From IMG/VR virus record IMGVR_UViG_3300028840_002431, positions 236,240 through 300,239 of that record: a stretch of 64,000 nt of DNA; one strand, written 5' to 3'. This DNA comes from a virus. The notes under the pieces were generated by a model that had not been told where the DNA came from, searched no databases, and saw only the letters and a program-made list of their open reading frames with translations. The first letter of the stretch is position 1. Every line of letters starts with the position of its first letter. Below, piece after piece: positions 17,546 through 61,565 of the stretch. The position numbers and the translations under genes are program-made.

Positions 17546-17564
17546 TTCCGGTGTAGTATTAGGT
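17546..17564 (+). promoter_or_regulatory. GGTGTA-type promoter motif, best copy
   Basis: TTCCGGTGTAGTATTAGGT directly precedes ATG 17565. It is nearly identical to the minus-strand copy before the DUF1848 gene, including distance to ATG. Confidence 0.65.
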
Positions 17565-18110
17565 ATGCTTATAGATGTTTCGCGTAAGCCAATCAGGCTG
17601 ATTCCAGAGGAGTGCGCGTCCGTTGTCGTCGTTCGCACGATGGCGATTCGTGGCGGTGCTTCTGGTATTATACACCAGCACATAAAGACCAAATACACGA
17701 GCAAGGACTCCTCGTTAGCCCCGACTGTTACAGTCCCCAACGGTGACGTGGAGCACATAGAGACACTTTTACCAGCCCCGAACATCCTGGTACCCAAGGT
17801 CAAAGCACAACACGGCCTACATTCCCGGCCGGAACACCACACCGTATCAGGCTACCAAGACCTCACAACCAAACGGACCGGGACGTGGCGCGTCAATTTC
17901 ATTTTCGACGGCACACAGAAAGATGACTACTTGCTCACGTTGTTCGACGAGACCAACAGTGTAATGTTGTTCACGGTCCAGATACAACCGTCGGACAACC
18001 AACTGTGGCGTGTGACAACACCTCTACGGCGTTTTCTCAATCGCCAGATGAACGACGGACTCGAAGGAGCGGACGGTCTTTGGGGCGCGGTCCTGGACGA
18101 CGACTTCTAG
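17565..18110 (+). CDS. Unknown protein, possibly virion-associated
   Basis: 181 residues. Beta-rich pattern ('TWRVNFIFDGTQKDDYLLTL', 'NSVMLFTVQIQPSDN') with no known domain. It ends 'GLWGAVLDDDF', only loosely like the LYDHL tag. The ATG follows the promoter motif without a ribosome site. Confidence 0.55.
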   Translation: MLIDVSRKPIRLIPEECASVVVVRTMAIRGGASGIIHQHIKTKYTSKDSSLAPTVTVPNGDVEHIETLLPAPNILVPKVKAQHGLHSRPEHHTVSGYQDLTTKRTGTWRVNFIFDGTQKDDYLLTLFDETNSVMLFTVQIQPSDNQLWRVTTPLRRFLNRQMNDGLEGADGLWGAVLDDDF

Positions 18111-18137
18111 AACCACCGAACGGTCAAGGAGGAGAGC

Positions 18138-18410
18138 ATGAAATTGAAACCCACCCACCGCGAGTTTTTCGAGGCGTTAGCGAAGCTCTGTGACCGGCAC
18201 GCGGCCCAGATGGAGGGCGTCATCTGCATCGAGTTCCAGGACAACCTCCTCGCAGACGATGAGCCGGGGACCTTCGCAAAGAAGGGGACGGCAGAGGTCA
18301 CGCAGGAATACTGTCTCACGCAGGTGAAGCAAGACAGCGGCGCTCACACCGTCCGGTTCCACGACCCGAACGACACGGGCACGCGGGAGTTGTACATCGA
18401 TTGCCGATAA
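18138..18410 (+). CDS. Small unknown protein
   Basis: 90 residues with a strong ribosome site (AAGGAGGAG). A helix at the N-terminus and strands afterwards; no family recognised. Its stop abuts the stop of the convergent membrane-protein gene with no gap. Confidence 0.5.
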   Translation: MKLKPTHREFFEALAKLCDRHAAQMEGVICIEFQDNLLADDEPGTFAKKGTAEVTQEYCLTQVKQDSGAHTVRFHDPNDTGTRELYIDCR

Positions 18411-18611
18411 TCAGAGCCTGGGTGTGAGCAGAGCCGTCACCCACACCAAAGCGGTCCCAATAGCCGCAGCCGCTTGCGACGGTTGTCCGTGTCGAGAGAG
18501 CGCCCAAACCAACACGGTTGTCCCCGCCATGAAGTGTATACCCAAGCCGCCCATTAGGATCATAACGAGTTCCTTCTTCGCAGCGGCTATCTTTGCCTTT
18601 GTTTCGCTCAT
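18411..18611 (-). CDS. Small two-helix membrane protein (holin-like)
   Basis: 66 residues from ATG 18611 (ATGA overlap with the upstream gene). A charged N-terminus is followed by two hydrophobic helices (~17-36 and ~44-62) with a short polar turn. Size and topology fit small holins or envelope-targeting peptides, but no endolysin is adjacent, so the role is open. Confidence 0.5.
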   Translation of the reverse strand: MSETKAKIAAAKKELVMILMGGLGIHFMAGTTVLVWALSRHGQPSQAAAAIGTALVWVTALLTPRL

Positions 18612-18943
18612 TTCACATCCTTGACACAATCGAAGAAGTTGAGGGAGGGCTTCACGGGTTTGGTTGGTTTCCGTCCGCGTCGTAAAACCATACCGTCTTC
18701 GAACGGGACGGTTTCCTCTCTGTAGACCACGTACCAGTTCCGTTTTTTCTGGTAAACGTGAAAGCCGAGTCCGAACTGCTCGCTCGTTTCGTTCATACGC
18801 TTTTTCGTCGTGGTTGTCTTATGCCCACCGGAATCCAAGACTATACGCTTGTAGTTGAAACCAACGACTCTCGTTCCATGGTAAATGACGTTTGTTGAGT
18901 TCTCGTCCGTGTAAACCTGAGTCCCGGTTTTTCCTATGGTCAT
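18608..18943 (-). CDS. Unknown small beta-rich protein
   Basis: 111 residues; ATG 18943 overlaps the kinase stop (TGATG). The composition is basic and strand-rich, with repeated Tyr/Val strands ('GLGFHVYQKKRNWYVVYREE'). No family recognised. Position between kinase and membrane protein suggests co-expression with the NAD operon. Confidence 0.5.
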   Translation of the reverse strand: MTIGKTGTQVYTDENSTNVIYHGTRVVGFNYKRIVLDSGGHKTTTTKKRMNETSEQFGLGFHVYQKKRNWYVVYREETVPFEDGMVLRRGRKPTKPVKPSLNFFDCVKDVK

Positions 18944-19854
18944 CACACCGCTCGCTCAGGCATCGGGAACGGTCGGTACTTGCGTTTGCCTATGGCTCGT
19001 TTGAGCACGCCATCGAACTCCTCGTGGGCGTCCCATGCGTCCTGTGGGCGTTTGGAGGGTACCGACCAGAGACAGGTCTTTAAGAAATCTCGAACGAGCT
19101 TGGGGACAGAGTCCGACATCTGGTTGGTCGAGACATTACCCCCAACCAGCGCAACGGCACATTTGGCAGCCATGTAGATGTCTGTAGCAGCGGTGGGGGT
19201 CTCCTTGGCCAGAATCTCCGGAGCGTAGAAATCCTTGTAAGGAGCGCTGATCGCTTTCACGTGCGGGTTCGAGAGAAAGGTGTCATCCGTCAGGTAGTCG
19301 TATAACGTCGGACCCTTCTTGGCTTTCGCCTTCTTGGGTGTGATGTCCACGGCATAGGACCAGTCGATGATCTTGGCCCCGTGGTCGGTTGGATGGATCA
19401 GCACGTGGGGCGGTATCAGAGCACCATGCACAATGCGATTCGTGTGAGCGAACCCTATGCCATGCAGGATACGGTTGAACATCCACACCATATCCCGGAA
19501 GTCGATCCCATCTGGAAAAGCCTCCAACACTTCCGCGAGCGAGCGGTGCTCATTGAACCAAGGCAGGATGTTGACTCGCCGTTGGGACGGGACCAGGAAC
19601 GAATCTAACACCCGTGGGAGAAAACGGTAAAACTTCTCGTCCTTGGCCGTCGGCGGGTACAACCTTCCCAGGATCTTGGCTTCGTTCTCAACAAGATCAT
19701 TGTCTGCGCTTTGTTTGACCACTTTGAAAACTACCGGGTACTCGTTGGTCCCGTTGAACACTACGCAGTTATAAACGTCGCAGATGTCTCCCGACGCGAG
19801 TTTGTCAGTGAGGACGTACTTCTTGTTCTTGTGTTCGATCGCTATCGGTTCCAT
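18943..19854 (-). CDS. Atypical protein kinase-like protein
   Basis: 303 residues with a kinase-fold layout: glycine-poor loop 'LASGDICDVYNC' (~19-30), Lys44 in 'VVFKVVK', Glu in 'ENEAKIL' (~57), then 'IVHGALIPPHVLIH' (141-154) where HRD is HGA and the usual Asn is His, and 'IIDWSYAV' (162-169) in place of DFG. The metal Asp164 is kept, the catalytic-base Asp is lost, so activity is uncertain. The activation segment holds a Lys-rich stretch and 'TLYDYLTDD' (183-191), a copy of the tag found at other proteins' C-termini. It overlaps purA by 50 bp. Confidence 0.65.
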   Translation of the reverse strand: MEPIAIEHKNKKYVLTDKLASGDICDVYNCVVFNGTNEYPVVFKVVKQSADNDLVENEAKILGRLYPPTAKDEKFYRFLPRVLDSFLVPSQRRVNILPWFNEHRSLAEVLEAFPDGIDFRDMVWMFNRILHGIGFAHTNRIVHGALIPPHVLIHPTDHGAKIIDWSYAVDITPKKAKAKKGPTLYDYLTDDTFLSNPHVKAISAPYKDFYAPEILAKETPTAATDIYMAAKCAVALVGGNVSTNQMSDSVPKLVRDFLKTCLWSVPSKRPQDAWDAHEEFDGVLKRAIGKRKYRPFPMPERAV

Positions 19855-21205
19855 GTCTTTCTTCTTCCCGAGGCCACGGGGTCTTGTCTTCGTATGTGGG
19901 TCCGGTTGAGCACAGTGTTACAGGTGTCTTGAGTTCTTGCGCTATATCGTCCAGGAAAGCGCTTCTGTCAAAAAGCTTCACGACCGGGATTGCGTTTTCG
20001 ATCTTACGAGTTAACTCTTCTTGCTTGTCGAGATTGGGTTCTAGCCCTCGAAGGCAGCCGTAGAGATCCAGACGCTGTTGGACCGGCAGTTTGGTAATAG
20101 AGACGCCTTTTTCTAACACATAACCTACACACACTGACGGCCGGTCCGTTACTCTCAATTTATCGAGGTTGGTGATCACCAATTCATCTACACCACCGAT
20201 AACTTCAAGGGCGTATCTGGCCAGGACCATGTCGAAGTGCCCCAGGCGGAAGCTCTGTTGCCACTCGCCGTATTTGTTGTGTGTATCCGTGGCGTACTCT
20301 GTACAATTTCCGGCCGCGTCCTTGTCATGGACCTCCGTTGGGAAGGGGCCAGCGCCGTGCCTTGTCATGTAGGCGCGTAGAATTCCCATCCTACGTACCG
20401 GCCCGTTGAAATCTCCGAGTAGTTCGTAGGCGTTGTTGAAGGTTATGTCGGAGCGCGTGACGTAAGGGAAGAAACCGTAATCCTGGTCCAACAAGACCCC
20501 CTGCGCTCCCTCGAAGATAACGGTCGAATCCCGCGACAACCGGAATTCTAACCAGTTGCGATCGACGATGTTAATCTTGCAGCCAAAGGCGTGATACCGC
20601 ACCGCGTAGTAAGACAATGCCGCTTCATCCCGGAGCAAGAGCAGGTTGGGGTCCCCGGCATCAATGTCACACCCCTCGAACTCCTTCAGTTTCAGGTTTC
20701 GCGAGAAACGCAACTTCTCGTGAACCTTATCCCGATTCGGGAGATCCCCGATCCTCAGTGCCATGTCAGGATGCTCCAAGGCGTCCTTGGCTGTTTCTCC
20801 GATACCCATTCCGCAAGATCCGTGACGCTTGTTTCGAATGGTCTCTCGTAACCGGTTGGCGGCCACCTGATAGACGTTCGTTACCAGGGCTTCGCCTTCG
20901 ACGAACAAGACGTTGTAGGGAGAGTGGCCAAGGGCCACAAGAGCTTGGACCTCCTCCTCCAAGGCGAGCGGGTTGACCATCATGTATCGGCTCAAGAGAG
21001 TGTCCGCCCCGGCCAGCGTCCCGCTACCAAACTGTGCAAACGTGTGGTGAGTTCCGTTGGGGAGAACGACGTTGTGAGCGGCTTGAGCACCTCCACAGTA
21101 TCTGACTACCAGTTTGGAATGGTAGAGGCGGGTCAGGTAATCGACGATGGAGCCTTTGCCCTCATCCCCGAAACCCAACCCGGCTATGAGGATCACCTTT
21201 GCCAC
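19805..21205 (-). CDS. purA: Adenylosuccinate synthetase family enzyme
   Basis: 466 residues from the GTG at 21205, which overlaps the NAMPT stop (TAGTG). The GTP-binding start is 'GLGFGDEGKGSIVDYL', keeping the catalytic Asp. 'GGAQAAHNVV' keeps the catalytic His, and 'FEGAQGVLLDQDYGFFPYVT' matches the central IMP/GTP region. The family joins IMP and aspartate (GTP-driven) on the way to AMP. The 'GGAQAAHNVV' form resembles a divergent clade rather than textbook PurA. Placement inside an NAD operon links purine supply to NAD or dATP synthesis. Substrate IMP versus dGMP is not decided by sequence. Confidence 0.85.
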   Translation of the reverse strand: MAKVILIAGLGFGDEGKGSIVDYLTRLYHSKLVVRYCGGAQAAHNVVLPNGTHHTFAQFGSGTLAGADTLLSRYMMVNPLALEEEVQALVALGHSPYNVLFVEGEALVTNVYQVAANRLRETIRNKRHGSCGMGIGETAKDALEHPDMALRIGDLPNRDKVHEKLRFSRNLKLKEFEGCDIDAGDPNLLLLRDEAALSYYAVRYHAFGCKINIVDRNWLEFRLSRDSTVIFEGAQGVLLDQDYGFFPYVTRSDITFNNAYELLGDFNGPVRRMGILRAYMTRHGAGPFPTEVHDKDAAGNCTEYATDTHNKYGEWQQSFRLGHFDMVLARYALEVIGGVDELVITNLDKLRVTDRPSVCVGYVLEKGVSITKLPVQQRLDLYGCLRGLEPNLDKQEELTRKIENAIPVVKLFDRSAFLDDIAQELKTPVTLCSTGPTYEDKTPWPREEERHGTDSDRTQEQEVRPH

Positions 21206-22605
21206 TACAACTCCGCCCGCTCCCTGATGTGGGCCAGCGACTGATCCCACAGAAGCTCACCGTCCCGGAAGACCTCTGTCAGTTGTGGGACGCCCGCTGT
21301 TATGAAATTCCCTCGTTCGGGTACCGTGTGCCATGCCCCGTCTTGCTCGCGGATGACCAGGAAACGGCCCCGCTTGCTCTTCTTGGCCGACGACGTGACA
21401 GGGTCTTTGTACACGTCCCGCTCGTAGTCCTTACCCTTGGCCCACGAGCATTTGAAGGCGAACTGTAGGGTATCCCTGTTGAACTTCTGTAACAGGCCGC
21501 CGCCGCTACCGAAAGCGATGTTGTCGATCGACCACCCCGAGTTGAGCAAGGCCCTGACTATCGTCCCCAACATCTCCCTGTCGATACCATCTCCCTGGAT
21601 GACGCGGACTTGCGGGGGAAGGACCTTGTACCCTTTCTCGTTCTTCTCCACACCAAAAGCGTCTCCCAGACCCTTGAGGACCTGGAGCACGGTGATGGGA
21701 AGCTCTCCCGAGTCAGGACGGACTACGAGCGTACCGTCACGGCTCAGGATCTGGTCTTTCAGTTCCTGACCCCAGTACACTTCGACGGCCCTCATGATGT
21801 CGAAACTGTCGCTCACACAGGCCACCAGACCCGTGGGGTACTGGTTCAACATGTTCCTGAAAGCGTCGAGTTCGTGCTCTTTGCCCCATGCTGTGATGGT
21901 CGAGTGCTCCGAGGCCGGGATGCTAACACCCGGCATCTCACAGCCGTAGAAGTCCATCAACATGTTACAGGCGATGAACGTGTCGGTGCCCTGGAAGTTG
22001 ACCAAGTGGGCCGCCCCTCCAAGGGCCGCTTGCTCTGGGCACGAGACCCCACGGAAGCCGAAATCGTGGAGCTTGAATGGCAGCCCAGCAAGGTCTCCGC
22101 TCTTCTCCAGAGCGTCGTGGAGGATTTCCTTACACCCTCTCGAATTGGTGGCGATCGTGCTGGCGTACCAGACCTCAACGAGTATGGTTTCCAGCCAGTT
22201 GGTCAGCCAGTAGCACTCCGGGTCGGTGTTCTCGATCGTCATCAACGGCGTGCTCGTAGGAACGACCGATCCTTCCGGCACTGCCTGTATGGAGACGGGC
22301 AGCTTGCCGCCGTGTTTGTCGATAATGTGCTGCCAACCGGCGACATTGAAGAGCTTGTCGTTGCCGAAGTGGGCCGCCCAACGCTTCGCAGACTTGTCAA
22401 GCCCCTCCTGCGTTACAACGACACCAGCGAGGTATTGTTTCAAGAAGTATTGCAGCCCGAAGAACACGACATAATCGCTCCACGACAGAGGTTTGCCGCG
22501 TGACTCGAAGTACGAGTAGACGTTCGTCGTGTCAGGTGGGTATTGAAGCCAGTGGGTTCCCTTGTAGCTGTCGGTTGCCCGTGTGATATCAAGTATTGGT
22601 TGCAT
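21205..22605 (-). CDS. nadV: Nicotinamide phosphoribosyltransferase (NAMPT/NadV)
   Basis: 466 residues. It converts nicotinamide and PRPP to NMN. Diagnostic blocks are 'KLHDFGFRGVSCPEQAALGG' (~185-204), the active His in 'PASEHSTITAWG' (~234-245), 'VSDSFDI' (~270), 'VVRPDSGELP' (~300), 'GDGIDREML' and 'FGSGGGLLQK' for phosphate binding. Length matches the family. GGAGAAG precedes ATG and the start overlaps the NMN adenylyltransferase gene by 17 bp, so NMN is made and used by neighbouring products. Confidence 0.95.
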   Translation of the reverse strand: MQPILDITRATDSYKGTHWLQYPPDTTNVYSYFESRGKPLSWSDYVVFFGLQYFLKQYLAGVVVTQEGLDKSAKRWAAHFGNDKLFNVAGWQHIIDKHGGKLPVSIQAVPEGSVVPTSTPLMTIENTDPECYWLTNWLETILVEVWYASTIATNSRGCKEILHDALEKSGDLAGLPFKLHDFGFRGVSCPEQAALGGAAHLVNFQGTDTFIACNMLMDFYGCEMPGVSIPASEHSTITAWGKEHELDAFRNMLNQYPTGLVACVSDSFDIMRAVEVYWGQELKDQILSRDGTLVVRPDSGELPITVLQVLKGLGDAFGVEKNEKGYKVLPPQVRVIQGDGIDREMLGTIVRALLNSGWSIDNIAFGSGGGLLQKFNRDTLQFAFKCSWAKGKDYERDVYKDPVTSSAKKSKRGRFLVIREQDGAWHTVPERGNFITAGVPQLTEVFRDGELLWDQSLAHIRERAEL

Positions 22606-23518
22606 GGCTTCTCCTTATTGCGCGGGTTGCGATATCCAACAGTTCGGAATGGCTGTCGGCGTAGTCGTATTGCTCTAACCGGTCGATATTGACCCAGAGA
22701 CATTCGTCCAGATCGTCGTTGCCCTTGGCCGATCCGAAGACGTATTTGGCCAGATACAACGTGGTGAACATGGCGTAGCCAGGGGCGTCCCGCGCCACCA
22801 CTCGAATCTGAGACAGGGGCGTGAAACCAGCGGCCTCGATACCGGTCTCTTCCAAAAGCTCACGTTTGGCGGCGGCTTCTCCCCCGGCGTCGTCGGCATT
22901 GATATGGCCGCCTGGGAGCCTCAAGATACCGCCCTCCCGTTCACGCCTACCGAGTAGGACCTCAATCCCGCCGTCTTCCGTCGGCCGCCACACACAGATA
23001 TCCACGACCGGGTCACAGCGGGCAAACTGGTTTGTCGCGCCGTAGATGACACCTCTACGAAAAGCCTCCGACACCTCCTGGCTACGTCCCGCTTCTAACC
23101 GCAGTTCGGTTGCCGACACATGCGGGATCTCTTCGATCTCCCGAACCTGGAAAGGGCCATGATACCCGCTTTGAAGCGACTTCTTGGAGTTAGGACGGCC
23201 GCAGTAGATCACCACGTCATCCGTGGGGAACATGATGTTGATAAGTTGGTTGAGGTGTTTGGTCCAGCGCTCGTCTGTCGGTTGGTCGGGGAGCGGTACG
23301 ACCACAGCACGCGGGTACTCCTCCTTGATCATCTGCTCACGCGCTTGGTAATCCAGGGGGTCTCGCGGCGTTCCGATAACCCGACTGACACCGACGCAGA
23401 CCAGTAACTTGCTGTGGTTCCCGGCTGTGTTGAGCAACGCTCTGTGCCCCTCAGTCAACCTGTGGCACTGGAAACGTCCAATAACAACTCCGACGCTGGC
23501 TTTTCTCTTTTCGCTCAT
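22589..23518 (-). CDS. nadM: Bifunctional NMN adenylyltransferase / Nudix hydrolase
   Basis: 309 residues. The N-terminal NMNAT domain (1-175) has 'GRFQCHRLTEGHRAL' (GRFQxxHxxH-type nucleotide site) and 'VSATELR' (ISTxxR-type). The C-terminal Nudix domain (~180-300) has 'KRELLEETGI' with the REUxEE core intact, although the upstream Glu of the full Nudix box is Ala. The two-domain layout is that of Synechocystis slr0787 and phage KVP40 enzymes. It makes NAD+ from NMN and ATP; the Nudix half probably cleaves ADP-ribose. AGGA precedes ATG. Confidence 0.92.
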   Translation of the reverse strand: MSEKRKASVGVVIGRFQCHRLTEGHRALLNTAGNHSKLLVCVGVSRVIGTPRDPLDYQAREQMIKEEYPRAVVVPLPDQPTDERWTKHLNQLINIMFPTDDVVIYCGRPNSKKSLQSGYHGPFQVREIEEIPHVSATELRLEAGRSQEVSEAFRRGVIYGATNQFARCDPVVDICVWRPTEDGGIEVLLGRREREGGILRLPGGHINADDAGGEAAAKRELLEETGIEAAGFTPLSQIRVVARDAPGYAMFTTLYLAKYVFGSAKGNDDLDECLWVNIDRLEQYDYADSHSELLDIATRAIRRSHATNT

Positions 23519-23533
23519 GTTTCCTGGAGAGAT

Positions 23534-23559
23534 GGGGAGGGGGCCGGAACCCCCTCCCC
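23534..23559 (-). terminator. Strong GC hairpin between VWA and nadM genes
   Basis: A perfect 10-bp stem (GGGGAGGGGG/CCCCCTCCCC) with a 6-nt loop lies between VWA stop and nadM start. There is no T-run on the minus strand, so it may be an RNA-stability or processing hairpin rather than a terminator. Confidence 0.55.
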
Positions 23560-23572
23560 TATGGGTTAGGGT

Positions 23573-24553: not shown

Positions 24554-24555
24554 TG

Positions 24556-25634: not shown

Positions 25635-25650
25635 TAAGAGGCGGTACACC
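25635..25650 (-). promoter_or_regulatory. GGTGTA-type promoter motif, weak copy
   Basis: Minus strand GGTGTACCGCCTCTTA ends at ATG 25634, with the usual spacing but a poor AT core. Confidence 0.3.
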
Positions 25651-27799: not shown

Positions 27800-27816
27800 C
27801 TAGTATTACACCGGAT
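27800..27816 (-). promoter_or_regulatory. GGTGTA-type promoter motif with normal leader
   Basis: Minus strand ATCCGGTGTAATACTAG, then a ~17-nt leader with GGAGG before ATG 27782. TTGCAG lies 17 bp upstream of TAATAC. It is divergent to the copy at 27853. Confidence 0.6.
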
Positions 27817-27852: not shown

Positions 27853-27872
27853 GTGCGGTGTAGTAGTAGGAA
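27853..27872 (+). promoter_or_regulatory. GGTGTA-type promoter motif
   Basis: GTGCGGTGTAGTAGTAGGAA ends at ATG 27873, the start of the 27.9-33.4 kb plus-strand gene train. Confidence 0.55.
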
Positions 27873-33865: not shown

Positions 33866-33880
33866 GGTGTAACCTACACT
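33866..33880 (-). promoter_or_regulatory. GGTGTA-type promoter motif, palindromic
   Basis: Minus strand reads CTAGTGTAGGTTACACC up to ATG 33865. GGTGTAACCTACAC also reads as a weak copy on the plus strand, toward the gene at 33899. Confidence 0.45.
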
Positions 33881-35359: not shown

Positions 35360-35378
35360 TTCCGGTGTAAATTATATT
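35360..35378 (+). promoter_or_regulatory. GGTGTA-type promoter motif
   Basis: TTCCGGTGTAAATTATATT runs into ATG 35379, with no ribosome site between. Confidence 0.6.
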
Positions 35379-36512: not shown

Positions 36513-36530
36513 ATACGATATTACACCAAA
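36513..36530 (-). promoter_or_regulatory. GGTGTA-type promoter motif
   Basis: Minus strand TTTGGTGTAATATCGTAT directly precedes ATG 36512, a leaderless arrangement. Confidence 0.55.
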
Positions 36531-39130: not shown

Positions 39131-39147
39131 ACTAAGTCTTACACCGC
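39131..39147 (-). promoter_or_regulatory. GGTGTA-type promoter motif
   Basis: Minus strand GCGGTGTAAGACTTAGT directly precedes GTG 39130, and decides that start. Confidence 0.5.
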
Positions 39148-40300: not shown

Positions 40301-41701
40301 ATGAAAACCGTCGAGAACCTCAGATACTGGTTCGCGTGCAACAGTTCCAGCACGCACAGCGTTGTATTCTACCCCGATCGTAAGCTGGAAGATGAGCTTT
40401 GCGAGGACGGCGAGTTCGGCTGGCAACCCTTTGTCGCCGCGTCCGACGAGATGAAGAGGAGTTATCTGGCGTCCATTCTCGATCACCGGCTGGATTACCT
40501 TGGAGACGGAGACGCCTCCGAAACCGCAAAGATGATCGTCGATCATCTTTTCCCATCGGTGATGACCGGCTTCATCGACCATCAATCAGTGCCCGTAATC
40601 CCTCGACGCTACGGATCGTCGGAGCCGCACTACGACTTCTTCCATGAGATGGTCTCGTACGTCATGAGAGAAGGCGTCGTCATCCACGGCGGAAACGACA
40701 ACGGAGATATAAACGATAATACGACGCCCCCGGCGACCAATATAGAATGGTACCGGCAGATACCACTGGACTCACGGGATGATAAGTGGGTCTGCCGTCA
40801 AGAGGGCGACTGGTGGCTCCTGTTCAACCACGAAGAGGGTATCAAAGCGACCGTCTCGTTCGAGGACAACCCCCGGCCCAGACCTTACGCCATGGTCCCG
40901 GAACTGGTCGATCTCAAGATCACCGACTTTTGCCCCTACGCTTGCCCCTGGTGTTATCAGGGAAGCACCCACAAGGGAGGTTTTGCAGAAAACGTCTCTA
41001 GCTGGCTCTACGCCTTTCACAGAATGGGTGTCTTCGAGGTTGCCATCGGTGGTGGTGAGCCGACTCTACACCCGGAATTCAAGCAAATCGTGGGCCACTC
41101 GTTGACCGATCTGAGAGTCAACTTCTCCACCCGTAACCTTGACTGGGTCTGCCACAATGCCCGGCTGATCAGAGAACACTGCGGTGGTTTTGCTTTCTCC
41201 GTGGACGGCGACCTTCACAAACACCTGGATGTGATCAGGGCGTTGAAAGAAGCCGAACTGTTGGAGAAGGCTACCCTACAGTACGTAATGGGAACGGGAA
41301 CGGACTACGACTTCGAGAATCTCGTCGAAGACTGTAGCAAGCACAACGTCCGCCTGACGCTGCTTGGCTACAAAGTGACCGGGCGTGGAGCACACGCACG
41401 AGGCAATTTACCAGTGACGCCGGTCCAGGACGGAGACGAGTGGATCGAGATCGTCAATAAGCACAGCTACAACCTCGCTATCGACACAACTCTCGCTGCC
41501 CGCGTCCCTAAAGAAGTCTTCGACGAAACCCTCCTCCGGAGAACAGAAGGCACCCATAGCATGTACGTTGATGCTGTGACATCGACGGCGGGTCCTTCCA
41601 GTTACGTGCCACAAAACGAGATGGTATCGCTCAGTGGCCGAAGACTCCAAGAGAGCCTCCTCAACGCCTTCGAGTCCTTCCAGACCAGGAGCACAAAATG
41701 A
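40301..41701 (+). CDS. Radical SAM protein with ~200-residue N-terminal extension
   Basis: 466 residues from ATG 40301 (AGGA upstream). The extension (1-200) opens with 'WFACNSSSTHSVVF'. The core has 'CPYACPWCYQG' (~210-220, CxxxCxxC) and 'AIGGGEPTLHPEF' (~247-259, SAM site). No C-terminal SPASM cysteines are evident. The substrate is unknown; a peptide or RNA-modifying role is possible. ATGA overlap with the small membrane protein that follows. Confidence 0.8.
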   Translation: MKTVENLRYWFACNSSSTHSVVFYPDRKLEDELCEDGEFGWQPFVAASDEMKRSYLASILDHRLDYLGDGDASETAKMIVDHLFPSVMTGFIDHQSVPVIPRRYGSSEPHYDFFHEMVSYVMREGVVIHGGNDNGDINDNTTPPATNIEWYRQIPLDSRDDKWVCRQEGDWWLLFNHEEGIKATVSFEDNPRPRPYAMVPELVDLKITDFCPYACPWCYQGSTHKGGFAENVSSWLYAFHRMGVFEVAIGGGEPTLHPEFKQIVGHSLTDLRVNFSTRNLDWVCHNARLIREHCGGFAFSVDGDLHKHLDVIRALKEAELLEKATLQYVMGTGTDYDFENLVEDCSKHNVRLTLLGYKVTGRGAHARGNLPVTPVQDGDEWIEIVNKHSYNLAIDTTLAARVPKEVFDETLLRRTEGTHSMYVDAVTSTAGPSSYVPQNEMVSLSGRRLQESLLNAFESFQTRSTK

Positions 41702-42794: not shown

Positions 42795-42814
42795 ACCTTA
42801 GGCTCCCCAAACCA

Positions 42815-42830
42815 CACGTGTAGCAGGAGT
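42815..42830 (+). promoter_or_regulatory. GGTGTA-type motif merged with ribosome site
   Basis: CACGTGTAGCAGGAGT lies immediately before ATG 42831; it keeps GTGTAG and carries AGGAG. Confidence 0.4.
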
Positions 42831-43451
42831 ATGGACCGCTTCCCGAAAATGGTAGAGATTGTCTCCCCTGGCAAGAGCGGGGACGCCGAGATACGACACA
42901 CCACGGTTTCCAGGGAGGCTTCCAGGTTCACGGCCTTGCGCCCCGGTGGCTTCGTCCCGGCCGGGAAGTACGCCGAATTGCTCGTGGATGGCGCACTCGT
43001 TATGTCCGACACCCGGCACGAGCACATCACCAACATCGACGCTGTGTTAGCCTCGCAAGGTCACGTCCTCATTGGTGGCCTGGGGTTGGGGATGATCTGC
43101 CACCCCATCGCCGCCAAGAAAGGCGTCACCAAGATCACTGTTGTCGAGCGAAACAAAGGGGTCATCGATTTGGTGTCTCCCACGCTACCGAAGAAGGTCG
43201 AGGTCATCCACAGCGACATCTTTGACTACAAGCCTGAGAAGGGTGCCAAGTTCGACACCATCTATTTCGACATCTGGACCGACATCTGCACCGACGCCCT
43301 CCCGGACATGGGCAAGCTTCTCCGCCGTTTCCGGAAGTATTTGGCCGATGACGGCTGGATCAATTGCTGGTGCCGGGACCGTCTCAAGAGCGAGCGCCGT
43401 CGGGAACTGGCCGAAGAAAGAGAGTACCGGGCACATGGAATACGAATATAA
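42831..43451 (+). CDS. Spermidine synthase-like / class I methyltransferase-fold protein
   Basis: 206 residues. 'VLIGGLGLGMICHPIAAKKG' (~73-92) is the nucleotide-binding loop, 'ITVVERNKGVIDL' the acidic strand, 'VIHSDIFDY' and 'FDTIYFDIW' later blocks, in the order of polyamine aminopropyltransferases. The N-terminal strands also fit. No catalytic Asp pair can be fixed by eye; small-molecule methylation is the alternative. Confidence 0.65.
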   Translation: MDRFPKMVEIVSPGKSGDAEIRHTTVSREASRFTALRPGGFVPAGKYAELLVDGALVMSDTRHEHITNIDAVLASQGHVLIGGLGLGMICHPIAAKKGVTKITVVERNKGVIDLVSPTLPKKVEVIHSDIFDYKPEKGAKFDTIYFDIWTDICTDALPDMGKLLRRFRKYLADDGWINCWCRDRLKSERRRELAEEREYRAHGIRI

Positions 43452-47420: not shown

Positions 47421-47437
47421 TGGTGTAGCTATCGGGC
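47421..47437 (+). promoter_or_regulatory. GGTGTA-type promoter motif
   Basis: TGGTGTAGCTATCGGGC ends at GTG 47438, the RNase HII start. There is no Shine-Dalgarno site. Confidence 0.5.
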
Positions 47438-53775: not shown

Positions 53776-53780
53776 TAAGG

Positions 53781-54299: not shown

Positions 54300-54318
54300 T
54301 GACTAATACACTACACCG
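54300..54318 (-). promoter_or_regulatory. GGTGTA-type promoter motif
   Basis: Minus strand GACGGTGTAGTGTATTAGTCA ends at ATG 54299. It sits in the 20-bp gap between this gene and the H1-like gene, which ends at 54320. Confidence 0.5.
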
Positions 54319-54319
54319 T

Positions 54320-55387: not shown

Positions 55388-55642
55388 TCAGGCTCTGCCG
55401 GAAAATTCTCGGTTGATATCTACCTCGTGAATGATTCCCAGGCTCCTAAGATGACGCTCTGCTTGGTCCTTGATCAATGCTCTCCTGAGTCCCTCAAGTC
55501 TACGGTCCTGGGTCGATTCGGCCCGCTTGATGGCCTTCTGTAGAAGCTGTTTCCAATCCTCCCGACGTGTCGGGGCTTGAACTCGTTTCTTGGGCTTCGT
55601 TTTCTGGGCTGTCTTCCCCCGCCCTAGTAGTCGTGTCGGCAT
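55388..55642 (-). CDS. Small basic protein
   Basis: 84 residues from ATG 55642 (GGGAGAAG upstream). Basic start, then helices ('EDWKQLLQKAIKRAEST'). No family recognised. It overlaps the end of the upstream gene by 143 bp in another frame. Confidence 0.5.
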   Translation of the reverse strand: MPTRLLGRGKTAQKTKPKKRVQAPTRREDWKQLLQKAIKRAESTQDRRLEGLRRALIKDQAERHLRSLGIIHEVDINREFSGRA

Positions 55643-55976
55643 CTAACTTCTCCCGTATTTGGGCTTCCATCGTAAGAACATCCTCTAGAGGAATATCCAT
55701 GCCCGTGGCGAACATGCGGAGATACACCTGTCTTTGTATATCAAAGCTGGCCTTTAGCTCCGCATTCTCTGACTGAGCTTTTTCAAGGGCTTCGTTGGCG
55801 GAATCCAACGCCGCGCCCAACTGTTCTACGTTGTCGGTATACGGCTTGAGGCGCTCAACCAAGCCTGTGAGTTCCTGTAAGGATTCCAACGACGAAAGAG
55901 CCTGAGTAAGCTCTTTCGGCAGATTCTTCGGCCCAGAAGTTGTCTTCTTCTGTGCCCTGCGTTCACGTCGGTTCAT
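55500..55976 (-). CDS. Unknown helical protein with disordered tail
   Basis: 158 residues. Helical coiled-coil body with 'GMDIPLEDVLTMEAQIREKL'; the last ~45 residues are Thr/Ser/Glu/Gly-rich and look disordered. That tail is encoded in the region overlapped by the next gene. ATGA-type coupling to the gene upstream. Confidence 0.55.
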   Translation of the reverse strand: MNRRERRAQKKTTSGPKNLPKELTQALSSLESLQELTGLVERLKPYTDNVEQLGAALDSANEALEKAQSENAELKASFDIQRQVYLRMFATGMDIPLEDVLTMEAQIREKLDADTTTRAGEDSPENEAQETSSSPDTSGGLETASTEGHQAGRIDPGP

Positions 55977-56377
55977 TGTGCGAAAGGCGGCCGTCCTCGA
56001 AAGATGGCATAGAAGGGTAACGAGCCGGGATTATTCGGTTCGTTATACAAGGCTTGTTCTGCGTCGGCCTGTTCGACAACGGGTAATTTGGGTGTCGTCG
56101 CGGCCAGTTCCCGTAGACGTTCGTCCGAGGTCACTCTTAACAGGTCCGCACGGGCCTTGTCATCCCGTTGCAGGATGTATACGACCTGACACTCCTCCAT
56201 CGTGTCGAGCATACACACGCCCGGAGCATTCACATCGTTCGGGCTGTCCCCTCTCTCCACCCAAACATTAGGTGTGCCGGGGACGTAGAGATCACATTTG
56301 GTAGTCGGAGTCGGAGGGCACTCCTCTTCGGTGGCCGGACATGCACACGGTTCGTTCTGACAAGTGACACAGGGCAT
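55973..56377 (-). CDS. Small Cys-rich-start protein
   Basis: 134 residues. The first 30 residues hold 'CVTCQNEPCACPATEEECPP', a dense cysteine group that may bind metal. The rest is mixed. AGAGG precedes ATG. No family recognised. Confidence 0.5.
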   Translation of the reverse strand: MPCVTCQNEPCACPATEEECPPTPTTKCDLYVPGTPNVWVERGDSPNDVNAPGVCMLDTMEECQVVYILQRDDKARADLLRVTSDERLRELAATTPKLPVVEQADAEQALYNEPNNPGSLPFYAIFRGRPPFAQ

Positions 56378-56401
56378 CGTTACCTCTTACCTAACTGATT
56401 G

Positions 56402-56665
56402 TTAAGAGGATAACCAGTCTGCCCGGAACACGATATTACCATCGTGCCCATTGGTACACCGAAAGCCCATGCGTGCGTAGAAAAAAGGCGTTCGTCTTCG
56501 CAAGGCATGGGCGTTGACCTCGACTTCCCCATCGCACTCCTGGCAGCGGAGTTGCCGTAGACGCTCTAGCATGGCATCCACAGACGGTACCGCAACCGCT
56601 GTTTCAACTTCGGCGTCGGTAAGGTCCTCAGAGTCCTCTTCTAACTCGCTTGGTAAATTCATCAT
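56402..56665 (-). CDS. Small zinc-ribbon protein
   Basis: 87 residues. Acidic start, then 'RCQECDGEVEVNAHAL' and 'FRCTNGHDGN', with two Cys and two further ligands (Cys/His). ATGA overlap with DUF1848 gene. Confidence 0.5.
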   Translation of the reverse strand: MMNLPSELEEDSEDLTDAEVETAVAVPSVDAMLERLRQLRCQECDGEVEVNAHALRRRTPFFYARMGFRCTNGHDGNIVFRADWLSS

Positions 56666-57459
56666 GTCGTGTCCCGCCGTTCGGCAGACAGGCTACTGTC
56701 CGCTGTGTAACAGTAGGCGCATTTATAAAGACACGCTTCATTAATCGTGAAGGGGTCAGCCATTAGAACGCACCCGCAGTCTTCCAGGGAGACCGGTGCG
56801 CCTGGGAAATCCGACTCCGGTACACAATGACCCGTCTCGAACGGAACGCCCGGCTTCACGAGGCTCTGGTCGTCGGAACACAGAATCACCCGCACGTCCC
56901 GCTCCGCAGCCTTATCTGCCAGCATGTTCAGTATATCGGATTTCTCCGGGCCGGTCCTGGTTTCCGGCATCCGATCGTTTTCCTGGAGAAAGGACACGTA
57001 CACGCGATCCAGACCGCCGCTCAGGGCGGCATACATCAGAATCTCAGAGAAGCGACGTAGCAACTCCTCGTTCGGCAAGAGAGGGACCGGGCTGAATCGC
57101 CAGTAGACCTTTTTGAACGCCTTGGCCGCGTCCGCCAAAAGGAGGGCCGATTCCCGAAGACCGGGAGCGCCTTCTTCCGCTTCTTCCCACCCCGTGGCCG
57201 TCATGTGGACGCTCACATCATACTCCTCGAAAATATGCTTGGTTCTAACAAGCATCCGGGGATTTTTCGTCCAGAAGACGAGGCCCAGCGTGTCCTCAGG
57301 AGCCAGAGACCACGCTTGCGGGGCGATCGACTTGGGGTCAAAAGCCACCATTTGACCCGCTTTCAGACAGGCCCGGAACCAGTCCCATTTGCTGGCAACA
57401 ACGTCCGTCCACCGGGACAGACTGTAAGGAATTCCGTCGGCACGGCCACTTCTAACCAT
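56662..57459 (-). CDS. DUF1848 radical SAM-like protein
   Basis: 265 residues. The order is that of DUF1848: 'SRWTDVVASKWDWFRACLKA' (~14-33), 'LGLVFWTKNPRMLVR' (~59-73), then the C-terminal 'CGCVLMADPF' and 'EACLYKCAYCYTAD' (~235-252), whose CxxxCxxC is the cluster site, located at the end of the protein as in that family. The reaction is unknown. The start codon directly follows the promoter motif. Confidence 0.8.
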   Translation of the reverse strand: MVRSGRADGIPYSLSRWTDVVASKWDWFRACLKAGQMVAFDPKSIAPQAWSLAPEDTLGLVFWTKNPRMLVRTKHIFEEYDVSVHMTATGWEEAEEGAPGLRESALLLADAAKAFKKVYWRFSPVPLLPNEELLRRFSEILMYAALSGGLDRVYVSFLQENDRMPETRTGPEKSDILNMLADKAAERDVRVILCSDDQSLVKPGVPFETGHCVPESDFPGAPVSLEDCGCVLMADPFTINEACLYKCAYCYTADSSLSAERRDTT

Positions 57460-57478
57460 GCCTAATATTACACCGGTT
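57460..57478 (-). promoter_or_regulatory. GGTGTA-type promoter motif, best minus-strand copy
   Basis: Minus strand AAACCGGTGTAATATTAGGC ends at ATG 57459, matching the copy at 17546 in sequence and spacing. Confidence 0.65.
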
Positions 57479-57496
57479 TTCTAACTATTGCGAGCC

Positions 57497-59134
57497 TTAT
57501 TTCCGGGTCTTGGGTTTATAACCCCTCCGGGTCGGCTCGACCTTGAAGCCGAACTTCTTACCCACCTTGGCCAGGGCTGCAAGGGTCGCTCTCTCGGAAG
57601 TGTCAACATCGCCGCCTTCATCGAGCGGGAACTGCACGTCAACACGGGTCTCGCGCTTCCAACCCATCTTCTCCTGTTGATAGGTCAGCGGTCCGGAGTA
57701 CACGTTGTTCAAGACCTTGAGATTCACATCGTGGACGTTACCGTCGTCGGCAACCACGGGAATCGTTGTACGATTGATGACCCTGATGGTGTCGATGTTG
57801 AAAGGAACGGGCTTGCGGCCCTCAACAAACAGAACACTCATCCGGTCAGTCGCGTAGCTGAAGCCGCCGACCTTCTCCAAGAAGCGACCGACGACCGACC
57901 CGGCTGATTTGAACTTGTCCTTGTTCTTCTCGTTTTCTTCACGCCATTTCTTGGCGTCTTCGGGACTCATGTTCTTCGTTGGGTCGGCTGGCTTACCCTC
58001 TTCAAACCGGCCGATCATCCCCTCATCCGCCGTTTCAGCGGCGGCCTTCAAACCTTTTTCTCTCATACTCTCCTCACGACGAGCTACGAAACGGTCCCAG
58101 TCATGCAGACGGTTACTAACGGTCAACGCCATCTCGGGGAAGGTGGCCCGGCCGCCGCTCTTGTTAGAGTCGAAGTGTGTCCACCGTCCGCCGTCTGACA
58201 TGCGGACGAAATCCCGAAAACTCCAGGTCAGCTTCAAGGTATCGGTACCGCCGTATACCTTGTCCGTGATGGAGACCTCCTGTCTGAAATCGTAATCTGC
58301 CCAGTCGCTACGGCCTGAGCCATAGACCGGCGTCGGCTTCCCCAGCTTCACGTTGAACCCAAGATCCTCGAACTCGGGCAGACTGGCGCGTTCGAAACCC
58401 ACCAAACGCCTCACAAGACGCTTAGCCGCCTCGTTGATGATATCGTTGATCTCTTCGAGTTCTCTTTGGTACTGCGGGAGGATGTGCTCGTGGAAGCCCT
58501 CCTCTTCCGAACGCCTCTGATACTCTTCGTCTCTGGAGTCAGTTACCCAGTCCACCTTCGTTCGCTGGGACACCATGCGATCGATTAGCTTGCAGTCCTT
58601 TGTCTCAACGGACTTGAACTGCGGGGCAGCGGCGTCCTTCTTGAATTTATCTTTGTTCTTCTGGTGCTCCTCACGCCACTTTTTGGCGTCCTCAGGACTC
58701 ATATTCTTCGTAGGGTCAGCGGGTTTCCCTTCTTCGAAGCGAGAAACGACCTCTTCGCTCGACGTGTCGGTCATGCCGGACTCCTTCGCGTAGCGCTCCC
58801 AACTTCTGGAGTAGACTTCTTCGTCATCGACTTCCATCTCGAACTTACGCCAAGCGTCTTCGGCCTTCTTGCCTACCATGAAAGTCTTGGTTCGCGGCCA
58901 GTACAACACGAGATCGCCGCGTTTAAACGGTGTCCCGTCGTCTGCCTTACCTGGGTATCTGGCGTGTATCCAACGGGGGTCGCCTTTGACGTAGCGAGCG
59001 CTCTTGAATTTATCCCCGTGCTCCTCGTTCATCTCCCGCCACTTGGCGGCCTGTTCGGCGCTCATGTTCTGAGTCGGGTCAGCGGGCTTACCCTTCTCGA
59101 ACTTGGAGACTACGTTTTCCCTGGCATTAGGCAT
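57497..59134 (-). CDS. Repeat protein with GKPADPTxNMSPEDAKKW units
   Basis: 545 residues. Three copies of a ~40-residue unit occur near residues ~10-45, ~130-170 and ~385-425: 'VVSKFEKGKPADPTQNMSAE', 'VVSRFEEGKPADPTKNMSPE' and 'MIGRFEEGKPADPTKNMSPE', each followed by 'KKWRE' and a Lys/Asp helix. A fourth short 'VVGRFLEKVGGF' follows the last. Each begins with a segment like the RVAxRYL leader. Between them are two globular strand-rich regions. Possibly a virion or injected protein cut into pieces. Confidence 0.6.
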   Translation of the reverse strand: MPNARENVVSKFEKGKPADPTQNMSAEQAAKWREMNEEHGDKFKSARYVKGDPRWIHARYPGKADDGTPFKRGDLVLYWPRTKTFMVGKKAEDAWRKFEMEVDDEEVYSRSWERYAKESGMTDTSSEEVVSRFEEGKPADPTKNMSPEDAKKWREEHQKNKDKFKKDAAAPQFKSVETKDCKLIDRMVSQRTKVDWVTDSRDEEYQRRSEEEGFHEHILPQYQRELEEINDIINEAAKRLVRRLVGFERASLPEFEDLGFNVKLGKPTPVYGSGRSDWADYDFRQEVSITDKVYGGTDTLKLTWSFRDFVRMSDGGRWTHFDSNKSGGRATFPEMALTVSNRLHDWDRFVARREESMREKGLKAAAETADEGMIGRFEEGKPADPTKNMSPEDAKKWREENEKNKDKFKSAGSVVGRFLEKVGGFSYATDRMSVLFVEGRKPVPFNIDTIRVINRTTIPVVADDGNVHDVNLKVLNNVYSGPLTYQQEKMGWKRETRVDVQFPLDEGGDVDTSERATLAALAKVGKKFGFKVEPTRRGYKPKTRK

Positions 59135-59137
59135 CTG

Positions 59138-59827
59138 TCACCGCCACTGCGAGAAATGGGTTTCCCAGTTGATCTTGTTCTTCCGGAACCAGTCAGTGAG
59201 GTTCCCCCAAGATACGTTCTTCAAGGCAGTAGGGTCGGCCTTGAGAATCTTGTACAGCTTACGGGCCGACGCCGGGGCCGTGGACTCGTACATCGTGTAG
59301 TGCGGGTCGGCTTGCTGGAAATCAGACTTGGGGTCGTAGACCTTGAAGCTGGTCCACCTTGCGTGAAGAGTGAAATCCTTGCCCTTGGCTTCGATCGGGT
59401 CCGTGTCCTCAGGCTCGATCTTGAGAAAGTGCTCGGTGAACTCGTCCCATCTCGGCTCTTTCTTGATCCACTCGAAGTGCTCTTTTTTATCCGGCTCCTG
59501 CTTCTCGTAGGCTATGTCGGCGGCAGTCCTCAGGGCCTCAGTGAGCTTGTCCTTCACCCGGTCGTAGTTGTCGGACCGGCTTAGCTTGGCATCGTCCAGG
59601 ACGTTCTCCGGGATGAAAGAGGAGAAGCCGTGCCAACCCCTGTCCATGAAGGTGCTCGCGGTAGATACCCGAAGCTTCTTTTTACCCTTCTGGGGCATCT
59701 CTTCCAAACGCCATACGTTACGGTTCCACCGAAGGCGGCAATCGCGGCCTAGGAACTTGCCGTCCCAACTGCCATAACGACCGGTCCTGCTTTGGAATCG
59801 AGTCAAAATCTGTTGCGCGTCAATCAT
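59138..59827 (-). CDS. Unknown protein with leader-like start
   Basis: 229 residues from ATG 59827 (GTG at 59836 possible). It begins 'MIDAQQILTRFQSRTGRY', a weak RVAxRYL-type leader. The body has several Trp/Lys-rich strands and no known domain. Neighbour of two other leader-bearing proteins. Confidence 0.5.
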   Translation of the reverse strand: MIDAQQILTRFQSRTGRYGSWDGKFLGRDCRLRWNRNVWRLEEMPQKGKKKLRVSTASTFMDRGWHGFSSFIPENVLDDAKLSRSDNYDRVKDKLTEALRTAADIAYEKQEPDKKEHFEWIKKEPRWDEFTEHFLKIEPEDTDPIEAKGKDFTLHARWTSFKVYDPKSDFQQADPHYTMYESTAPASARKLYKILKADPTALKNVSWGNLTDWFRKNKINWETHFSQWR

Positions 59828-59832
59828 AAGCC

Positions 59833-60240
59833 TCACCCTAACACCACGGTCACGTCGTACTTTTCGAGGGGGTCCTCAAGAGTCCCCGCTCCCGCCGCCG
59901 TGATGGTACCGTGGATGATTTGTTCCCTGCCCCTCTCGTTGACGTAGGGGATCTCGATTCGCCACACCTTTGAGCTAGGCATCTTTGGCCGGGGTATCGT
60001 CCGCGACCACTCGTAGTCAGCCCGCTTTATTTCATACGGGATATCGTGATTCCTGAAAATCTTGAAGATCTCGTGAACGGGCTTCCAGTACGTGTCTCGG
60101 AAAATACCGTCCGGCGTGTTGCCGATCAGCTTGTAGAGGTACCGGACCGCTTTCTGCTTCCGCATGGAATCCAGCGGGTTAGCTTCTTCCAGGGCGGATT
60201 TGTAGCGAGCTACGACCCGATCAGAGGCATTCGCGTCCAT
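59833..60240 (-). CDS. Unknown protein with RVVARY leader
   Basis: 135 residues beginning 'MDANASDRVVARYKSALEEA'. The rest is an alpha/beta domain with 'IPYEIKRADYEWSRTIPRP'. No family recognised. Confidence 0.55.
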   Translation of the reverse strand: MDANASDRVVARYKSALEEANPLDSMRKQKAVRYLYKLIGNTPDGIFRDTYWKPVHEIFKIFRNHDIPYEIKRADYEWSRTIPRPKMPSSKVWRIEIPYVNERGREQIIHGTITAAGAGTLEDPLEKYDVTVVLG

Positions 60241-60263
60241 GCCTTACAGAAAACACAAATACT

Positions 60264-61529
60264 CTAAGCGTTTTCCGCAGCCGCTTTTCTGACTATCAGG
60301 GCAGATCCAGGATTGGCCACCGCCTCTGCGGTGATTCGGATAGCGGAAACGTCAGGGCTGTCCGGAGCGTCGAAAGAGTAAGGTTTGAGCACGTCCTCCA
60401 TGATGGTCCTGAGCGCCCTGGCTCCGGTCTCACGCTTCTGGGCCAATTTGGCGATATCCCTAAGCGCTTCTTCTTCGAATTGAAGGTCGATGCCGTCAAG
60501 GGAGAACATGGCCCTGAATTGCTTGCAGATGGCGTTCTTCGGCTCAATGAGAATGCGAATCAACTCGTCTTCTGTCAGTTCGTAGGTCGATGTTAGAATC
60601 GGGAACCGGCCGACGGTCTCCGGTATCAGACCGAACTCCAGGACATCCTCAACTGTGATGTTCTTGTAGATATCGGTCTTGTCCCGTTCTTGGGCGTGTT
60701 CCCTTCCGAACCCGATGCCCGTCGAAGCGTTGAGACGATTATCAACAAGCTCCTCGATTCCGGCGAACGACCCGGCCGCTATGAAAAGGATGTTGGTCGT
60801 GTCGATGACATCGACAGGGGAAACCCCGGAAACCGCTCTCGTCCCGTGCCCCCGTGGGACCGGAACCTGATGGCCTTCCACGAGCTTGAGCAACGCCTGT
60901 TGCACACCCTCACCGGTTACGTCTCGATACCCGGAGGGACTACGGCCCGATTTGCGGGCGAGCTTGTCGAACTCGTCCAGAAAGATGATACCCCACTCGC
61001 ACCGCTCGATGTTCTGTTGGGCGTCCGCAAACAAGCCTTGAAGGATGGATTCGGGGTCGTCTCCGACGTACCCAGCTTGGGTCAGTCTGTTACAATCGGC
61101 CACGTAGAAGGGGACATCTAACGCTCTTGCGATCGCTCTGGCGATCAGGGTCTTACCAGATCCGGACGGGCCGGGGAGTAATATGTTAGATTTCTCGATC
61201 TCGACCCTTTCACCTTCTAACACTACCCCGCCATTCTTACTCACTTCCCGACGGCGGAAATGCTTGTAGATGGCTATGGCCATATCCCGCTTGGCGGCCT
61301 CCTGTCCGATGACAATCTCGTCCAGTAAAGCCATGATTTCACGAGGCTTTTTCAGCGGTACGTTGGAAGTGGACTCGGCCTTTCGCTCGACTTCCGCGAT
61401 AGCCCTGGACGCCTCCTCGATGCAACCCTCGCAGATGTGCGGGCCGTCCGTAGCGCCCACGAGATGGTTGACCTCGTTTCGGGGACGGTCACAAAAATCA
61501 CACTTCTTCTTAGGGTCCTTATCGGCCAT
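60264..61529 (-). CDS. clpX: ClpX-type AAA+ unfoldase
   Basis: 421 residues. N-terminal zinc domain ('CDFCDRPRNEVNHLV' with 'CEGC'), Walker A 'GPSGSGKT' (~119-126), pore loop 'AGYVGDD' (~152-158), Walker B 'IIFLDEFDKL' (~179-188), a ClpP-contact-like 'GIGFGRE' (~268-274) and sensor 2 'ETGARALR' (~369-376). It unfolds tagged proteins and feeds ClpP; keeping IGF suggests it can dock a protease. No clpP in the window, so host ClpP is the likely partner. Confidence 0.9.
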   Translation of the reverse strand: MADKDPKKKCDFCDRPRNEVNHLVGATDGPHICEGCIEEASRAIAEVERKAESTSNVPLKKPREIMALLDEIVIGQEAAKRDMAIAIYKHFRRREVSKNGGVVLEGERVEIEKSNILLPGPSGSGKTLIARAIARALDVPFYVADCNRLTQAGYVGDDPESILQGLFADAQQNIERCEWGIIFLDEFDKLARKSGRSPSGYRDVTGEGVQQALLKLVEGHQVPVPRGHGTRAVSGVSPVDVIDTTNILFIAAGSFAGIEELVDNRLNASTGIGFGREHAQERDKTDIYKNITVEDVLEFGLIPETVGRFPILTSTYELTEDELIRILIEPKNAICKQFRAMFSLDGIDLQFEEEALRDIAKLAQKRETGARALRTIMEDVLKPYSFDAPDSPDVSAIRITAEAVANPGSALIVRKAAAENA

Positions 61530-61565
61530 GACCCTAATATATTACACCGGAAACTAGGGTGTCAA
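61530..61565 (-). promoter_or_regulatory. GGTGTA-type promoter with TTGACA -35 box
   Basis: Minus strand TTGACA (61560-61565), then TTTCCGGTGTAATATATTAGGGTC running into ATG 61529. TTGACA lies 15-18 bp before the AT-rich core, the best evidence that this motif is a sigma70-like promoter. Confidence 0.65.

Follow-up and report, generated by a model that had tools for sequence, protein, structure and literature searches.

Why does one short sequence recur immediately ahead of start codons, on both strands, in a large viral genome? The question was raised by a 64,000-nt stretch of DNA (hereafter, the window), bases 236240-300239 of the IMG/VR virus record IMGVR_UViG_3300028840_002431 (416,539 bases in total), in which a preliminary description had proposed a virus-specific, sigma70-like promoter family that marks the first genes of units on both strands and starts transcripts at or near the start codon. 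The genes of the window are phage-typical and metabolic (NAMPT, adenylosuccinate synthetase, NUDIX, RtcB, RlaP, topoisomerase IB and a ClpX-like ATPase). We conclude that GGTGTA, the heart of the recurrent element, is very probably the core of a promoter that yields leaderless or near-leaderless mRNA and has no -35 box. The predicted system is wider than one phage: besides the ~417-kb phage record that contains the window (hereafter, G000), over 30 further huge viruses have the box.

A short core ahead of start codons

The recurrence reported earlier is real. Allowing up to three mismatches, CCGGTGTARTATTA matched 18 times in the window, compared to 4.2 ± 2.1 in shuffled sequence (0 of 100 shuffles reached 18), and with up to two mismatches this 14-mer occurred 28 times in the whole 416.5-kb record, compared to four for the reversed control. 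When all hexamers in 335 upstream regions were counted without bias, GGTGTA came out on top (42 versus 4.8).

We compared G000 with four relatives, other huge viral contigs picked up via the ClpX-like gene: G002 (398 kb; ClpX-like protein identity 82%), G003 (a 203-kb fragment; 66%), G005 (435 kb; 54%) and G006 (407 kb; 51%). The comparison used sampled stretches of these five phages, with GC contents of 48-65%. In each of the five genomes, GGTGTA ranked highest among positional hexamers, ~16 nt upstream of ATG (z 8.9-27.8), a result for which gene calls were not used; the same positional method applied to G039, another huge phage, one without the box, gave the classical AGGAGG at -12.

The consensus across 279 aligned sites is t/c-C-GGTGTA-R-w, with later positions weakly preferred. 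Strong conservation is limited to yGGTGTAr, which retains the center of the motif first reported and makes it shorter, as both its 'TATTA' tail and its leading TTCC are weak. No column signal for a -35 hexamer was found at that position in the 279 sites, nor a TTGACA-like hexamer 16-18 bp upstream; the TTGACA or TTGnnn -35 box of the preliminary description is not supported, the TTGACA upstream of the copy at 61548 being a single case.

Spacing and the predicted transcript start

The distance from box to start codon is best counted from GGTGTA, which gives a range of 9-13 nt for the near-start copies that we call class I. For the 731 GGTGTA in the sampled stretches of the five phages, open reading frame (ORF) starts at spacings of 9, 10, 11, 12 and 13 nt numbered 71, 114, 52, 29 and 17, compared to about 8 expected at each. 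The distribution cuts off sharply below 9, is highest at 10 and trails off to 13, with spacings of 8 nt or less at background. Such a hard lower edge and one-sided tail would be expected of a promoter if RNA starts 9-10 nt downstream of the box, since a start codon cannot precede the RNA start.

Transcription usually initiates on a purine (+1) that follows a pyrimidine (-1). A pyrimidine stands immediately before the start codon at 76% of motif sites (69-81% per spacing class), compared to 50% in other genes, and since this signature is centered on the start codon, the RNA start most likely falls on its A or G. If the start codon is taken as +1, the TA of GGTGTA falls at -12/-11 at modal spacing. 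In leaderless bacterial genes, the -10 box likewise has its T ~12 bp upstream of the start codon (PMC3160421). Class I sites thus have the form expected of leaderless or near-leaderless promoters: a core at a fixed distance that would place +1 at the start codon, with no Shine-Dalgarno (SD) sequence.

Gene context

Box genes were divergent to their upstream neighbor in 25 of 79 cases, compared to 16 of 168 SD genes (p 3e-5), and overlapped the upstream gene in 3 of 79 compared to 43 of 168. An SD sequence was present in none of 26 near-box genes and in 7 of 12 genes with the box 16-45 nt upstream; the copies at 27812 and 39216 belong to this far-box-plus-SD kind, their leaders of 24 and 21 nt carrying the GGAGG first noted there. 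Twenty divergent start-codon pairs have two back-to-back boxes in their shared intergenic region, some of them 4-8 bp apart in regions that measure 42-47 bp across, both start codons included. Overall, GGTGTA pairs within 60 nt were 38 divergent, 10 convergent and 5 direct. Because the 42-47 bp divergent regions share nothing but two boxes, the boxes must carry the promoter. Spacing, the pyrimidine at -1 and divergence support, at the level of sequence, the proposed promoter family on first genes of both strands, with predicted starts at or near the start codon. A role as tRNA promoter was rejected, as the box lies just upstream of only 1 of 75 tRNA genes; the sampled part of G000 has a cluster of 34 (L007, at 80-100 kb of G000; also L011).

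Copies in the window

The GGTGTA copies that follow the spacing rule, the two leadered copies and two one-base variants are as follows.

17550..17555, + strand: class I box GGTGTA, 9 nt to ATG 17565 of a 181-aa ORF; box and spacing kept in G002 and G003 orthologues
27857..27862, + strand: class I box, 10 nt to ATG 27873, 116 aa; divergent to the leadered box at 27807-27812
35364..35369, + strand: class I box, 9 nt to ATG 35379, 233 aa
36654..36659, + strand: variant box AGTGTA, 9 nt to ATG 36669, 292 aa
39216..39221, + strand: leadered GGTGTA, 21 nt to ATG 39243; GGAGG in leader
47422..47427, + strand: class I box, 10 nt to GTG 47438, 230 aa; kept in G005 orthologue
25645..25650, - strand: class I box, 10 nt to ATG 25634, 62 aa; kept in G002 orthologue
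27807..27812, - strand: leadered GGTGTA, 24 nt to ATG 27782; GGAGG in leader
33875..33880, - strand: variant box AGTGTA, 9 nt to ATG 33865, 142 aa; one-base variant
36522..36527, - strand: class I box, 9 nt to ATG 36512, 146 aa; kept in G002 and G003
39140..39145, - strand: class I box, 9 nt to GTG 39130, 56 aa
54312..54317, - strand: class I box, 12 nt to ATG 54299, 172 aa; kept in G003
57469..57474, - strand: class I box, 9 nt to ATG 57459, 265 aa, DUF1848 (Pfam); kept in G002, G005 and G006
61543..61548, - strand: class I box, 13 nt to ATG 61529, 421 aa, ClpX-like; kept in all related contigs (51-82% protein identity)

Of the copies listed in the preliminary description, those at 17550, 27857, 35364 and 47422 (+) and at 36527, 39145, 54317, 57474 and 61548 (-) fit the 9-13 nt range, the copy called weak at 25635 is a minus-strand box at 25650 that fits it too, and that at 33880 (-) is the variant AGTGTA. 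Four others break the spacing rule: 1083 has no start codon within range, 11540 has GTG at 15 and ATG at 24 and lacks an SD sequence, 15209 has a spacing of 4 or 7, and 40239 lies up to 62 nt from the likely ATG at 40301. Between 40239 and 40301, ahead of the ATG of a radical-SAM gene, an inverted repeat GGTGTA..ACACC is followed by a GC-rich repeat (CACCGGTCGG..CCGGCCGGTGC). The supposed copies at ~4540, 10831 and 42815 are of another kind, being the -10 part of the bipartite element described next.

A second, bipartite class

Some gene starts in G000 have TTAGAT ~34 nt upstream together with GTAG near the start codon. In the window this arrangement takes the form TTAGR-N17-GTAG-N7-ATG.

10817..10850, + strand: class II promoter (predicted), TTAGG 10817, GTAG 10839, ATG 10850
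42798..42831, + strand: class II promoter (predicted), TTAGG 42798, GTAG 42820, ATG 42831
8702..8735, - strand: class II promoter (predicted), TTAGA 8735, GTAG 8713, ATG 8702
4535..4568, - strand: class II promoter (predicted), TTAGG 4568, GTAG 4546, ATG 4535

We examined this class in four phages (G000, G002, G005 and G006). The corresponding pairs are CTAGA-N17-TGTAAT in G002, GGAAAA-N16-CGTC in G005 and TTGAAC-N16/17-TGTA in G006; each is abundant solely in its own phage, at a fixed distance from the start codon and with a spacer of 16-17. A predicted second promoter class, with -35 plus -10 elements, thus sits at start codons, and its sequence is phage-specific. Promoters of extracytoplasmic function (ECF) sigma factors have the form GGAAC..CGTC. 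The G005 pair resembles these, but no ECF sigma was found in G005 by PF04542.

Conservation, clade distribution and a candidate reader

Boxes are retained between orthologues. For G000 genes and their orthologues, both had the box in 15 cases, one or the other in 12 and 14, and neither in 224 (odds ratio 20, p 6e-10), and conserved boxes keep the same kind of spacing while their flanks have diverged.

A search with the phiEco32 sigma family led to a 213-aa protein with two tandem helix-turn-helix (HTH) domains, encoded in G000 outside the window (L074:1183-1824, minus strand; ~33.1-33.7 kb). Its first HTH is a clear sigma region 4 (PF04545, E 5e-14), the protein is 63-92% identical among four of the phages, and its model (predicted local distance difference test, pLDDT, 76) matches sigma-region-4 structures, with template modeling (TM) scores by target of up to 0.86 and a root-mean-square deviation of 1.0. 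This tandem sigma-region-4 protein is present in 61 viral loci of huge contigs (homologues L071-L073 and L087-L147). Our guess is that it is the best candidate for a reader of the box, acting on the host RNA polymerase.

In 36 related contigs, a set that includes near-duplicates such as G007 and G000, whole-record counts of GGTGTA-N9-11-ATG totaled 1,384 compared to 120 for the reversed pattern, with enrichment of at least 2-fold in 34 of the 36. We counted whole records because enrichment is weak around the sigma-region-4 gene itself (47 contigs), which sits in a large-gene region where boxes are sparse. Nearly all 36 contigs carry a version of the protein that is at least 52% identical (it was not found in the G003 fragment). 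Four contigs with a 33-47% identical version had 14 GGTGTA-N9-11-ATG compared to 24 reversed, and the box is absent from T4, phiEco32, 7-11 and huge phages with a distant version of the protein. These patterns suggest that the predicted class I promoter is common to a clade of huge phages, with contigs of up to 529 kb. The label virus-specific is plausible in that the box is clade-shared and absent from T4, phiEco32 and 7-11, with a host sigma factor remaining a rival. GGTGTA is common to phages whose sampled stretches have GC contents of 44-65%, and phages spanning this range probably do not share one host.

Searches of the five genomes for other transcription machinery found no homologue of T4 gp55 (phrog_234; T4 control recovered), of the beta' subunit of the phiKZ multisubunit RNA polymerase (phrog_3015; phiKZ control recovered) or of RNA polymerase beta (PF00562). 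A scan for the DxDGD catalytic motif gave nothing convincing, the matches being DDDGD-type or scattered, and a PF00940 search was negative without a positive control, hence not evidence of absence. Sigma region 2 was not found with Pfam at E 0.001, a search that could miss phiEco32-type sigmas (phiEco32 gp36 itself scores just E 0.002). The gp36 family (phrog_1740) recovered mainly sigma-region-4 HTHs and one weak region-2 match in G005, and no full gp36 homologue. Given these negatives for phage RNA polymerase, gp55 and canonical sigma region 2, the enzyme that transcribes from the boxes is likely the host RNA polymerase.

A 272-aa protein, with one copy in each of four genomes (L083:1162-1980, minus strand; L082; L080; L040), was considered as a divergent region-2 sigma, a reading that we do not claim. 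Its scores are weak (PF04542 E 0.083 for L082; phrog_1740 E 0.0012 for L040), RpoE, FecI, gp36, 7-11 gp47 and gp55 did not outscore unrelated controls in profile-profile comparisons, and the quality of its model is poor (pLDDT 55). Further sigma-region-4-like HTH proteins are encoded at L079:1465-1998 (plus strand) and L078:772-1962 (plus strand), with more than one each, and a protein at L076:1408-2547 (minus strand) has one C-terminal sigma-region-4-like HTH.

Proposed mechanism and alternative explanations

We propose that an RNA polymerase holoenzyme reads yGGTGTAr alone and would start ~9-13 nt downstream, either on the first base of the start codon, A or G, or within a few nucleotides upstream of it. 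The resulting leaderless mRNA would need no SD sequence, and boxes farther upstream would give a leader, often with one. The T and A of GGTGTA, at about -12 and -11, would take the place of the -10 box TA of leaderless promoters, and the GGTG just upstream, for which the preliminary description conjectured a second factor as reader, may serve as an extended contact replacing the -35 box. The reader may be the host's RNA polymerase, retargeted by a factor from the phage, for which the tandem sigma-region-4 protein is our guess. The full scheme, a two-tier leaderless programme on host RNA polymerase in which clade-wide GGTGTA is read via this protein beside phage-specific bipartite promoters, is one that we advance tentatively, as possible rather than probable.

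Several observations weigh against these proposals. The T expected at -7 in a sigma70 -10 box lacks conservation here (0.31, compared to a background of 0.22), and TG abuts TA directly instead of standing one base apart (TGn) as in a canonical extended -10. Class I accounts for a low 7-22% of called genes, compared to 23-29% for SD-like sites, fractions that are rough because our own simple gene caller gives an SD bonus and misses small genes. All transcript starts discussed here are read from sequence. Class II -10 elements lie ~2 nt nearer the start codon, which leaves room for a 1-3 nt leader on class I transcripts. To the failure to find sigma region 2 is added G026 (301,550 bases; L149-L154), which has the sigma-region-4 protein (60% identity) without GGTGTA enrichment and has few long ORF starts. 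Finally, box and protein co-occur, but both are clade-inherited; common descent could explain this, and with near-duplicate contigs in the set the protein is therefore a candidate and not the reader.

The most serious alternative, which we nonetheless hold to be unlikely, is an ordinary host promoter, read by the housekeeping sigma through a -10 plus an extended contact in a host that, like Actinobacteria or Deinococcus, uses many leaderless genes. The TA at -12/-11 agrees with the TA-like signal of bacterial leaderless genes (PMC3160421), no canonical phage sigma or RNA polymerase was found, and the 279 aligned sites show a weak A/T bump ~41 nt upstream of the start codon, such as contact with the C-terminal domain of the polymerase alpha subunit would leave. 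The unconserved -7 T and the out-of-register TG speak against it too, however, as does the same GGTGTA in phages of 44-65% GC with probably different hosts. The box moreover accompanies the conserved sigma-region-4 protein of these phages and is missing where that protein is distant, and class II elements vary between phages.

A box that acts in RNA as a non-SD ribosome-binding signal would also suit a fixed distance to the start codon and near-box genes that lack SD sequences, and CACC at the 3' end of 16S rRNA can pair with GGUG. That pairing would lie ~6 nt too far upstream, however, and a hard floor with a one-sided tail is not a symmetric optimum. Box genes start units and rarely overlap upstream genes, copies 17-45 nt upstream retain the box and often add an SD sequence, and in the 42-47 bp divergent regions two boxes are the sole shared elements; we regard the idea as very unlikely. 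It is just as improbable that the box is the operator of a regulator acting on a separate promoter, with GGTGTA/TACACC pairs as its palindrome. Some inverted pairs (40239, 36527) and a conserved HTH protein would fit, but most sites are single half-sites at a constant distance from the start codon, paired boxes lie anywhere from 4 to 65 bp apart, and no other common promoter element surrounds class I sites. The least probable reading, to which we give hardly any weight, is that the phages, like phiKZ and AR9, encode an RNA polymerase that uses a short promoter: non-virion RNA polymerases (nvRNAPs) typically use short single-element promoters, but neither PF00562, the phiKZ beta' family nor a convincing DxDGD was found, beside the PF00940 negative that had no positive control.

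Comparison with known systems

The leaderless promoter core favored here has partial counterparts. Leaderless-gene promoters of Actinobacteria and Deinococcus-Thermus, with TANNNT ~12 bp upstream of the start codon (Zheng et al. 2011, PMC3160421), likewise have TA at about -12/-11, no SD sequence and ATG or GTG starts; class I differs in conserving GGTG upstream of TA and not the -7 T, and belongs to phages. Promoters of phiEco32 gp36 are single tAATGTAtA elements with no -35 and a start 6-8 bp downstream (PMC8948821). They are the nearest experimentally known form, sharing a single TGTA-containing element, no -35 and a start 6-9 bp downstream. Class I in contrast has GGTGTAr, not AATGTAtA, and a predicted start on the start codon, in genomes with sigma-region-4 matches and no full gp36 homologue. 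Group 2 jumbo phages encode minimal single-HTH sigma factors and T4 gp33 (comparative genomics 2021, PMC7824862); they too have a sigma-region-4-type HTH without region 2 and no RNA polymerase of their own, whereas here two HTHs stand in tandem and the proposed link to a promoter class is new. The nvRNAP late promoters of phiKZ and AR9 are TATG and AACA-N6-TA/G, with AR9 leaders of 26-491 nt (PMC5312081). These are likewise short genome-wide promoter words of jumbo phages, but no nvRNAP was found here. According to a review, sigma homologues are probably what jumbo phages without RNA polymerase rely on at their phage-specific promoters (PMC13282480). We found no description of this clade's promoter class in the open literature, a search that did not cover subscription papers or preprints.

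A promoter that by its own position fixes the 5' end of the RNA at the start codon would offer, for one clade, a candidate explanation differing from that of Al-Shayeb et al. If true, the two-tier programme would let these phages bypass SD initiation and would account for the weak SD usage of some huge phages, with no need for ribosomal proteins of phage origin. Tblastn with E. coli rpsA gave no match to ribosomal protein S1 in the sampled stretches. The boxes would also provide a promoter map readable from the genomes of more than 30 uncultured huge phages, correcting start-codon calls, helping operon prediction without expression data and naming a candidate protein partner.

An ORF in G003 (L075:943-1815, plus strand), read from sequence, resembles a GIY-YIG homing endonuclease and has several C-terminal HTH repeats.

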